Source: Mesorhizobium sp. B2-7-1
GTDB lineage: Bacteria; Pseudomonadota; Alphaproteobacteria; Rhizobiales; Rhizobiaceae
NCBI RefSeq assembly: GCF_006440735.1
Contig: NZ_VFUA01000002.1
Location: 62,001 to 126,000, forward strand
DNA length: 64,000 nt
Direction: 5' to 3'
Part shown: piece by piece, positions 26,762 through 55,941 of the stretch
Layout: each line of letters opens with the position of its first letter
Numbering within the stretch: the first letter of the stretch is position 1
Notes under the pieces: generated by a model
The model's database searches: none
Seen by the model: the letters and a program-made list of their open reading frames with translations, nothing else
Told to the model about the DNA's origin: nothing
Translations under genes and position numbers: made by a program

Positions 26762-27322
26762 TTGCCGAACCCCGGCACCGACCAGATTTCAATCGTCGAT
26801 CTCATTCCCGCCTTGCGGGCTTTTGCGCGGACCTTCTGTCGCGCGCCTGACGATGCCGACGACCTTGTGCAGGAAACGCTGACCAAGGGGCTTGCCAATC
26901 TGGACAAGTTCGAGCCGGGTACGCGCCTGAAGTCCTGGCTCTTCACCATCATGCGCAACACGTACTACACGCGTGTCAAAGCAGCGGCCAGGGAGGCGCC
27001 CGGGCTGCTTGACTGCGCCTCCAGCCGGCCGATTTCGGAACCCTCGCAAGATTGGTCTGTTCAAACCAGGGAAGTGCATCACGCCATCCAGAAACTACCT
27101 TCGCAACAGCGCGAGGTGCTGATGCTGATCGGCGTGCTGGGCGTCAGCTACGACGAAACCGCCGAGATATGCGGCTGCGCCGTCGGCACGGTCAAAAGCC
27201 GCCTCAACCGCGCACGTGCCAGCGTTCTGGGGTTTCTTGGGGAGAACTCGCCTAAGGCGCTGATCGAGCGGCGCCGCCAGCTGTCCGACAATCATTGGGA
27301 TACGGAAAGCGGCACGCGCTAA
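26762..27322 (+). CDS. EcfG-like ECF sigma factor
   Basis: About 186 residues from TTG 26762 (TTG 26741 is another choice). Region 2 is complete (FARTFCRAPDDADDLVQETL, GTRLKSWLFTIMRNTYYTRV) and region 4 ends in the EcfG-typical EICGCAVGTVKSRLNRARA. EcfG factors direct the alphaproteobacterial general stress response from GGAAC-N16-NGTT promoters and are held by NepR and released by PhyR. More than twenty such promoters lie in this window. It may be one of several EcfG paralogues of the genome. Confidence 0.85.
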   Translation: MPNPGTDQISIVDLIPALRAFARTFCRAPDDADDLVQETLTKGLANLDKFEPGTRLKSWLFTIMRNTYYTRVKAAAREAPGLLDCASSRPISEPSQDWSVQTREVHHAIQKLPSQQREVLMLIGVLGVSYDETAEICGCAVGTVKSRLNRARASVLGFLGENSPKALIERRRQLSDNHWDTESGTR

Positions 27323-27477: not shown

Positions 27478-27666
27478 TCACGACCGCTCTGCTCCTGCCG
27501 CATCGGCTCTGCGCTTTTCAGTCAGCGCGGTTTGCAATTCGCGTGCAAGGTTGATGAGACGGTCAGGGACCTTCTCCCGCTCGATAGCGGCCAGCAACGA
27601 TGCGATCTCCCGGTCCAAGCCCTGGTTCGCTTGGGCGCAAAGACCGCTCTCTCTCGTGCGAGACAT
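27478..27666 (-). CDS. Small protein, possibly NepR-like
   Basis: 62 residues. The core LLAAIEREKVPDRLINLARE recalls the NepR anti-sigma signature (EPVPDRFLDLL-like). It faces the EcfG-like gene convergently, unlike the usual nepR-ecfG operon. The second half is charged (LTEKRRADAAGAERS). The NepR link is an inference from a short motif and position; a relative with the same pattern lies at 55753-55941. Confidence 0.55.
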   Translation of the reverse strand: MSRTRESGLCAQANQGLDREIASLLAAIEREKVPDRLINLARELQTALTEKRRADAAGAERS

Positions 27667-51432: not shown

Positions 51433-52056
51433 TCAGTGCAGCAACGAGCTTCCGCGGGCGCGCGCGATGCCGCGCATGATACCATTGAGCCAGTCGGCAG
51501 TGGATGAGCCGGCAGGTTTGTTGTCGATGTCCTCAAGTGCACTTTCCAAGGTCAGTTCGACCAGGCGATCGGAGGCTCTGGCATCGTCCAGAAGCAGGCG
51601 CGCGGCGAGCCGGAGTTTGGGCAACAGCGAGACCACGTCGTCCGCCACTGATGTCGGTTGCGCAACAGTAGCGGTCGTTGGCTCAAGCAGCGGTTCTGGC
51701 GAGCACAGCGCGTCGGCGAGGGCGGTCCGGCTTGAAGACTTGCTCAGGCTGCTTGCGAAACGCAGATGCTCGGGAATGGCGATCCGGTCACAGCCGCTGA
51801 AGAATACGAACGGCACGTTGCGGCTCATCAACTCGTCCGCAATCGGGAAAACGTATTTGCCCTGGAGATCAACGTCCAGGATGGCCGCCTCGGCTGTCTG
51901 CGCGTGTTGTTCGGCCTGCTCTACGGTCGCGACCGGCCCGAGGATAATGGCGCCCATGTCGGAAAAGAACTTGGCTAGATCGCTGGCCAGCAGCCACTCG
52001 TCTTCCGCGATCAAGAGGTGAAGTCCCCTGAGGTTTCGCACGCGAAGCTCCTTCAA
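51433..52056 (-). CDS. Receiver protein with C-terminal sigma-region-2-like domain
   Basis: 207 residues. Residues about 11-118 are a receiver: acidic pocket LLIAEDEW (Glu18, Asp19, Glu20), phosphoacceptor Asp61 in AAILDVDLQG, and FVFFSGCD. Residues 143-197 (SLLPKLRLAARLLLDDARAS, DRLVELTLESALEDID, WLNGIMRGIA) align without gaps to region 2 of the EcfG-like protein at 26762, with about 19 of 54 positions equal by eye. There is no region 4. PhyR has the reverse order (sigma-like first, receiver last). A perfect GGAAC-N16-CGTT promoter precedes the gene. A role as a switch that binds a NepR-like protein is an inference. Confidence 0.75.
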   Translation of the reverse strand: MKELRVRNLRGLHLLIAEDEWLLASDLAKFFSDMGAIILGPVATVEQAEQHAQTAEAAILDVDLQGKYVFPIADELMSRNVPFVFFSGCDRIAIPEHLRFASSLSKSSSRTALADALCSPEPLLEPTTATVAQPTSVADDVVSLLPKLRLAARLLLDDARASDRLVELTLESALEDIDNKPAGSSTADWLNGIMRGIARARGSSLLH

Positions 52057-52150
52057 CTCGCATTTCGACGTGATGAGACCTCGGCCCTAGGGCATGCTGC
52101 GCCAACACCGGCGCGCGTGAAAATGAGGTCGCTGGGAAGCCAGATCGTAG

Positions 52151-52175
52151 AACGCGGTGACGGGTGAACCGTTCC
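52151..52175 (-). promoter_or_regulatory. EcfG-type promoter of the receiver/sigma-like gene
   Basis: Minus strand: GGAAC (52175-52171), 16 bases, CGTT (52154-52151), the full consensus. It lies 95 bases before the ATG at 52056, leaving a leader of about 85 bases. Confidence 0.75.
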
Positions 52176-52222: not shown

Positions 52223-52247
52223 GGAACCATCTCCCCAGCCTGCGGTT
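52223..52247 (+). promoter_or_regulatory. EcfG-type promoter for the 52285 gene
   Basis: GGAAC (52223-52227), 16 bases, GGTT (52244-52247), 37 bases before the ATG. Confidence 0.65.
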
Positions 52248-52284: not shown

Positions 52285-52467
52285 ATGACGTTGGACGGCG
52301 AGGCCTCCAGAGACCACAACGAGCGCGAGAATGCCGAACGTGTTCGCAATCTTGCCGAACGAGCAGGAATTCCAAGCGGGTTGGCGCTCGCGCTGATTTT
52401 GAAATACGGCAACGATCCAGACGTGCTCGATCGCGAGGCGGCAAAGCTGAAGCGCGACGCGGGATAG
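52285..52467 (+). CDS. Small charged hypothetical protein
   Basis: 60 residues (ASRDHNERENAERVRNLAER; LALALILKYGNDPDVLDREA), probably helical. Stress promoter upstream. Family not recognised. Confidence 0.6.
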   Translation: MTLDGEASRDHNERENAERVRNLAERAGIPSGLALALILKYGNDPDVLDREAAKLKRDAG

Positions 52468-55693: not shown

Positions 55694-55718
55694 GGAACCT
55701 TTTTTCCGCCAGTGGGTT
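55694..55718 (+). promoter_or_regulatory. EcfG-type promoter for the 55753 gene
   Basis: GGAAC (55694-55698), 16 bases, GGTT (55715-55718), 34 bases before the ATG. Confidence 0.65.
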
Positions 55719-55752: not shown

Positions 55753-55941
55753 ATGGCACGCAAGGTTCGTCAAGTGCTCAGGTCGGAGGAGGAGTCTTCG
55801 GAGACGACGAGGCCGGAACGCGAGATGAGCGTCGCGTTGGACGCGTTGAGATATGAGGATGCGCCTACTCGGATGTTGGAGTTGGCGCGGAAGCTCGACG
55901 CAGCGATCGCGTTGCGTGCGCGCAAAGCTCGCCCGAATTGA
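55753..55941 (+). CDS. Small protein, possibly NepR-like
   Basis: 62 residues from ATG 55753 after AGGGAG (MARKVRQVLRSEEESSETTR; LDALRYEDAPTRMLELARKL). The pattern L-D-A-L-x5-P-x-R-hydrophobic-x2-LA-x-L matches the 27478 protein and loosely the NepR signature. Its own promoter is EcfG type, as expected for a feedback inhibitor. The link is inferred only. Confidence 0.6.
   Translation: MARKVRQVLRSEEESSETTRPEREMSVALDALRYEDAPTRMLELARKLDAAIALRARKARPN

Follow-up and report, generated by a model that had tools for sequence, protein, structure and literature searches.

A receiver-sigma-2 protein of Mesorhizobium and relatives, a probable feedback element of the general stress response

Mesorhizobium sp. 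B2-7-1 encodes a protein in which a response-regulator receiver is followed by a sigma-2-like domain. The gene is located at positions 51433-52041 of the window, which is the whole stretch of 64,000 nucleotides analysed here. The protein, called rec-sigma2 below, represents what is apparently an undescribed, conserved family of bacterial switch proteins; no description of a receiver-then-sigma-2 protein was recognised in the open-access literature covered. Rec-sigma2 probably provides the general stress response of Mesorhizobium and its relatives with an additional feedback loop. In this response of Alphaproteobacteria it is reasonably likely to serve as a sigma-2 decoy that is gated by phosphorylation.

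As a decoy, rec-sigma2 would be phosphorylated at Asp56 by an HWE kinase, directly or through a single-domain regulator; HWE kinases phosphorylate the FATGUY receiver MrrA (PMC5964349). Phosphorylation would change the exposure of the sigma-2-like surface, either exposing or hiding it. The surface would bind an anti-sigma protein of the NepR type, for which the short protein encoded alongside is the likeliest candidate, and binding would shift the NepR/EcfG balance, at EcfG or at a paralogue. Rec-sigma2 would constitute a feedback arm because the gene is probably transcribed by EcfG itself. The sequences show the domain make-up, the conservation, the promoter motifs and the linkage, from which promoter use, phosphorylation, binding and the sign of the effect are inferred.

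Gene, domain order and conservation

The gene and its two domains are:

51433-52041, minus strand: rec-sigma2 gene, 202 amino acids, GTG start
51700-52017, minus strand, approximate limits: receiver domain, from PDB matches and invariant residues
51457-51636, minus strand, approximate limits: sigma-2-like three-helix C-terminal domain, from Pfam, profile comparison and AF2 helices

A start at the TTG at 52056 is also possible (reading frame 51433-52056, minus strand, 207 amino acids). The sequence AAGGAG is located 6 nt before the GTG at 52041, and the N-terminus read from this GTG fits that of the relatives better than the N-terminus read from the TTG. Since the GTG start (202 amino acids) is preferred, the phosphoacceptor numbered Asp61 in the preliminary description is numbered Asp56 here. 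The protein consists of the receiver (approximately residues 9-114), a linker and the C-terminal domain (approximately residues 136-195). The preliminary description had placed the receiver first and the sigma-2-like domain last, had taken the phosphoacceptor to be intact and had found no region 4. The order is borne out by Pfam, by PDB matches and by an alignment of 24 members. Glu13, Asp14, Asp56 (codon 51874-51876) and Lys101 are invariant in all 24. Region 4 is absent because the reading frame stops past the third predicted helix.

Seven of the 24 aligned members are Mesorhizobium orthologues, namely the window protein and matches of the first search. For members from beyond the family search, membership was judged from the length of the match, and for L192-L200 also from reading of the sequence; Pfam was not the basis. 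Left out were L029 and L030, which have the receiver only, L028, which is at a contig end, L026, whose match begins at residue 27, and L102, whose contig has the same length as that of L013 and which is probably the same genome.

The first search returned 22 loci, 20 of them in Mesorhizobium. With a profile, full-length or nearly full-length matches were obtained in at least 44 of 119 Mesorhizobium genomes, in addition to one partial match. Matches were also found in at least 19 of 297 genomes of the family (8 of 109 genera), in at least 12 of 347 genomes of the order (three families) and in at least 4 of 385 genomes of the class, including the window's own; the other three are labelled as same class only. 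These counts are lower bounds, because few candidates were scored per genome (up to 27 in Mesorhizobium, 10 in the family, 9 in the order and 8 in the class). Even so, rec-sigma2 is rare outside Mesorhizobium. It is present, though more rarely, in other genera and families and probably in other orders. Four plasmid records, from Shinella, Martelella, Ensifer and Mesorhizobium, match at least 80% of the query and are annotated "response regulator". A similar receiver is also present in a protein annotated as helix-turn-helix on a Rhizobium sophoriradicis plasmid (L191, 4977-6149), which is followed by two response regulators and a CheB-annotated gene and is possibly another receiver fusion.

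Substitution ratios were calculated for nine gene pairs. For the receiver, dN/dS was finite in eight pairs, seven of them having values of 0.06-0.17 and the closest, window-L009, a value of 0.56; one pair was saturated. For the sigma-2-like domain, the eight finite values were 0.13-0.28, and one pair was again saturated. By this measure, both domains are under purifying selection. A chance resemblance or a decaying gene is ruled out by the conservation of the family together with the dN/dS values.

Kinship of the two domains

The best Pfam and NCBIfam labels point to PhyR. Pfam PhyR_sigma2 matches the C-terminus of the window protein with E 4.3e-5 and 23.9 bits (curated cutoff 27), and with 27.2 bits in the genome search of the window protein and its neighbours. 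PhyR_sigma2 is also found in all 24 aligned members at E <= 1 (best 2.6e-9), and Sigma70_r2 in only three. However, the PhyR_sigma2 model exceeds its own cutoff on EcfG factors as well. The gapless identity to the window's EcfG-like factor that had been counted by eye, 19 of 54 positions, holds and was reached in none of 20000 shuffles of the stretch; the pairwise genome search of the window protein gave E 0.0017 for the same factor. When profiles were compared, the C-terminal domain matched the EcfG sigma-2 profile with E 3.4e-17, a profile of four other ECF factors with E 3e-14 and the PhyR sigma-2 profile with E 3.5e-8; two unrelated pairs used as controls had probabilities of 0.2 and 0.41 out of 100. 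The EcfG profile outscored the PhyR profile in each of the 24 members. This comparison is our own and not a curated one, since the sets were chosen by sequence patterns (17 PhyR from 30 loci; 11 EcfG and six copied in). The profile of the four other ECF factors beat the EcfG profile in 12 of the 24, and the source of the sigma-2-like domain is therefore ECF-type, but not surely EcfG.

The receiver likewise has its closest relatives elsewhere than in PhyR. The best receiver chains in the PDB are SdrG (E 1.5e-8) and a Sma0114-type chain (E 2.3e-8; entry 2lpm, Sma0114), and PhyR chains reach E 0.027 at best. Within its own genome, the nearest match of the receiver is a single-domain regulator (59 bits), the PhyR receiver scoring 12 bits. 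The best NCBIfam model is nevertheless PhyR (7.8e-9), narrowly ahead of PRK13435 (8e-8). The preliminary description had called the protein an inverted PhyR and had proposed a profile comparison with PhyR and EcfG. As a description of the architecture the name stands; as a statement of descent it is not supported, given that EcfG is ahead of PhyR in all 24 members and that single-domain regulators are the closest matches of the receiver, even though PhyR is named in the best labels of both Pfam and NCBIfam. Judged by these scores, rec-sigma2 is likely a separate fusion that reached a plan like that of PhyR, and not a rearranged PhyR.

Structure prediction said little about the fold. A full-length model based on 17 Mesorhizobium sequences was poor (pLDDT 52.3). 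For the isolated 72-residue C-terminal domain, AF2 predicted helices at 2-20, 28-43 and 51-70, with pLDDT 78.3 and pTM 0.53 in the best of five models and pLDDT 60-66 in the others. Foldseek placed sigma-2, PhyR and EcfG-NepR structures in ranks 1-11, none of them significant (E 0.49 or worse). A second aligner gave Z scores up to 4.8, compared to 4.6 for unrelated chains, which is the range of common helical arrangements. Thus, of the sigma-2 fold that had been proposed for the C-terminus, three helices at sigma-2 positions are predicted with moderate confidence, but a significant fold match was not obtained with either aligner; the outcome that would have refuted the proposal, a C-terminus lacking this fold, was not seen, though the fold was not strongly confirmed.

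Rec-sigma2 shares with PhyR a receiver, a sigma-like domain with a degenerate RNA polymerase contact region, an EcfG-type promoter and the frequent proximity of an HWE-type kinase, in addition to the database labels. However, PhyR has N-terminal sigma-2 and sigma-4 domains followed by the receiver, whereas rec-sigma2 has a receiver followed by sigma-2 only, and both domains score nearer to other proteins, the sigma-2-like domain to EcfG and the receiver to single-domain regulators of the same genome. Rec-sigma2 would work like PhyR in outline while failing the order and composition that define PhyR. EcfG (ECF15) and other ECF factors have sigma-2 sequence in common with rec-sigma2, which differs from them by the absence of sigma-4, the loss of the region 2.2 Q-E and the attached receiver. 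The FATGUY regulators SdrG, MrrA and Sma0114 possess the closest receivers, both in the PDB and in the own genome, but lack an effector domain, whereas rec-sigma2 has a conserved sigma-2-like domain at its C-terminus. In the literature covered, PhyR is the sole described case of sigma-factor mimicry by a response regulator.

Promoters and linked kinases

The sites and the sigma factor discussed in this section are:

52151-52175, minus strand: EcfG-type promoter GGAAC-N16-CGTT of the rec-sigma2 gene, GGAACGGTTCACCCGTCACCGCGTT
52223-52247, plus strand: second EcfG-type site, from the site search, ending in GGTT and facing away from rec-sigma2
26777-27322, plus strand, approximate start: EcfG paralogue with sigma regions 2 and 4, from genome and Pfam searches

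The perfect GGAAC-N16-CGTT promoter that had been noted upstream of the gene is present, and membership of rec-sigma2 in the general stress response is supported alongside it. Of 51 loci, 29 have a strict promoter (GGAAC-N15..18-[CG]GTT) in the 400 bp upstream of the gene and 22 do not, with a background of 0.048 per 400 nt. All 29 have a spacer of N16, though N15..18 was allowed; the loci are related, so these are not 29 independent events. L198, which has the same length as plasmid L188, is included in the 51 loci of the promoter and NepR-like counts and left out of the 50 loci of the linkage counts below.

The window harbors 11 GGAAC-N16-[CG]GTT sites compared to 0.80 expected, a number reached in none of 100 shuffles, and for this reason it looks like a stress-regulon island. 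Of these sites, the rec-sigma2 promoter alone ends in CGTT. The site at 52223-52247 belongs to a 60-amino-acid reading frame (52285-52467, plus strand), which diverges from rec-sigma2 and has no Pfam match. Another stress-signalling region is located on contig C68 of genome G000, at approximately 6.7-10.6 kb and 49-55.5 kb (L122, L002, L003, L035, L044); it encodes a second EcfG, a CheB-CheR-HWE kinase and several single-domain receivers, contains a weak NepR-like reading frame, and has five EcfG-type sites in its first 16 kb compared to 0.13 expected.

Linkage was counted within 7 kb of the gene in 50 distinct loci, five of which have a shorter flank on one side; the loci are related and the counts are not independent. 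A kinase resembling the HWE part of the L013 kinase is present in 36 (with Pfam results for two such kinases), a CheB-CheR-HWE kinase in 28, a single-domain receiver in 33 and an EcfG paralogue in 11. Any of the kinase, the single-domain receiver or the EcfG paralogue is found in 41. No HWE-type kinase was found within this distance in 14 of the 50 loci, including those of the window's gene and L009. In 14 of the 18 named Mesorhizobium loci (L009-L025, L027), the kinase is located upstream in divergent orientation and is followed by the single-domain receiver; such neighbours are absent from the loci of the window's gene and L009. The window's genome encodes a CheB-CheR-HWE kinase followed by a receiver on a contig other than that of rec-sigma2. 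It also has a canonical locus with PhyR, NepR and EcfG, as well as additional EcfG paralogues, including the one at 26.8 kb in the window.

These neighbours bear on an alternative function. Rec-sigma2 might, like SdrG and MrrA, serve chiefly in phosphotransfer or as a phosphate sink within the HWE kinase network, with a C-terminal domain that only docks the kinase or dimerises. The receiver is nearest to single-domain regulators in both the PDB and the own genome, and an HWE-type kinase and a single-domain regulator are often encoded near the gene. However, the C-terminus is conserved as a sigma-2 domain and NepR-like genes are frequent neighbours, neither of which is needed for docking, and this role is therefore considered unlikely.

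NepR-like genes and RNA polymerase contacts

A binding partner for the proposed decoy may be encoded by small genes, three features of which are found in the window:

55753-55941, plus strand: NepR-like small gene, the window's nearest to rec-sigma2, 3.7 kb away
55694-55718, plus strand: EcfG-type site 34 nt before the NepR-like gene at 55753, from the site search
27478-27666, minus strand: second NepR-like small gene, beside the EcfG paralogue, from the profile search; no match with Pfam

The surroundings of 51 loci (893 kb, six frames) were searched with a pattern and then with a profile at a cutoff of E < 0.3, the profile being seeded from matches at any position within the same 51 loci. 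The search revealed 41 small reading frames around the motif P-x-R-(M/L)-L-x-L-A-x-x-L, four of them weak (E 0.025-0.23). Thirty-five of the 41 are located within -1000..+2300 of rec-sigma2, in 35 of the 51 loci; the same profile search found none nearby in the other 16. A NepR-like frame is directly upstream on the same strand in 23 loci, 15 of which are Mesorhizobium, and 19 of these 23 frames end within 5 nt of the rec-sigma2 start. In L193 and L194, whose genomes are labelled as same class only, a weak NepR-like frame (E about 0.2) is located just after the gene, and the frame of an HWE-type kinase starts 973 nt after the gene start on the same strand.

The NepR-like profile matched the canonical NepR profile, aligned without the wrongly framed row L146, with a probability of 94.4, and NepR chains were the two best of 177,635 PDB sequences (E 0.0083 and 0.012). 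Pfam NepR matches only 2 of 21 small proteins (best E 0.0033). The second helix of NepR, with P-x-R and leucines, is recognised in the linked small proteins from the profile probability and the PDB. The preliminary description had singled out the small proteins at 27478 and 55753 as possible partners; both are NepR-like, as judged by the NepR-like profile search and by profile and PDB matches at the level of the family. The former and the EcfG paralogue at 26777-27322 are likely a second sigma/anti-sigma pair. The counterpart of the 55753 gene in L009, the nearest relative, is 0.6 kb upstream of rec-sigma2 and divergent. Two NepR paralogues of Methylobacterium extorquens have an EcfG-type site (PMC4814048), as does the 55753 copy.

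It is also conceivable, though quite unlikely, that rec-sigma2 binds the canonical NepR, competes with PhyR and damps the response, the small NepR-like gene being a separate regulator. The window's gene is conserved yet lacks a coupled NepR-like gene, and canonical NepR is present in its genome. Against this reading, 23 of 51 loci have a NepR-like small gene immediately upstream in the same orientation.

The small proteins share the P-x-R...L helix with NepR and the M. extorquens paralogues, but most copies coupled to rec-sigma2 differ from both in being helix-poor before P-x-R. The mean number of proline and glycine residues before P-x-R was 2.6 in coupled copies, 1.9 in canonical NepR and 0.57 in separate copies, and coupled and canonical sequences were poorly separated by this count; its pattern missed L027 and L196. 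Helix propensity was calculated for 9 of 16 coupled, 8 of 15 separate and 15 of 15 canonical segments. Near copies (L017, L020, L021, L022 and L027; L009, L110, L189, L195, L197 and L200) were dropped, as were L114 and L117 (too short) and L196 (missed by the pattern); L118 and L119, near relatives, were both kept. The helix cost before the motif was 0.37-1.14 in coupled copies (n=9) and 0.20-0.33 in separate copies (n=8; one-sided P 4e-5), compared to 0.27-0.47 in canonical NepR (n=15). Eight of the nine coupled copies are above the highest canonical cost of 0.47 (one at just 0.48), and L106, with 0.37, is below it. Separate copies are also more helix-prone than canonical NepR (two-sided P 0.001), and all eight are helix-prone. 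The test is suggestive only, because the segment was chosen after the sequences had been seen. It suggests that coupled copies tend to have a helix-poor stretch before the motif and that separate copies are helix-prone.

A lone sigma-2 domain might not be large enough to hold NepR. A wider picture, tentative but possible, is that of a miniature partner switch made from halves: a half-PhyR (receiver and sigma-2) and a half-NepR (the second helix) encoded in one operon, gated by a CheB-CheR-PAS-HWE kinase and transcribed by EcfG. Such a switch would have arisen independently of PhyR, by fusion of a single-domain receiver with an ECF-type sigma-2, with much of the linkage kept across several families of Alphaproteobacteria. 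The half-NepR beside the half-PhyR is only a lead, because representatives were chosen after inspection and the lineages are few. A second, separately assembled mimic with half of the sigma surface would show which halves of NepR and sigma carry the contact, and how a receiver gates a mimic from the other side. Rec-sigma2 is also a concrete candidate for a part in the poorly understood multiplicity of NepR and EcfG paralogues.

Finally, the residues of region 2.2 bear on whether the C-terminal domain could act with RNA polymerase. Region 2.2 reads D-D-L-V-Q-E/D in 11 of 11 EcfG factors (L for V in two), and its Q and E correspond to Q406 and E407 of sigma-70. In rec-sigma2, the second D is replaced by R in 19 of 24 members, the Q is kept in none (E in 23, A in one) and the position after it is acidic in only two, compared to 11 of 11 in EcfG. 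The beta-prime coiled coil is contacted mainly through region 2.2 (PMC4598750). Judging from the alignment, the residues that hold RNA polymerase in true sigma factors are lost in rec-sigma2. A true sigma factor is rejected, since region 4 is absent and these contact residues are lost, in agreement with the earlier statement that the protein cannot be a normal sigma factor. With the contact residues replaced in nearly all of the 24 members, it is most improbable that rec-sigma2 is half of a split sigma factor that works with RNA polymerase, as in the SigO-RsoA pair, with phosphorylation controlling assembly, even though our profiles place the C-terminal domain nearer to ECF sigma-2 than to PhyR and split sigma factors exist (PMC8103513). 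The contact regions of PhyR are likewise degenerate, according to the same source.
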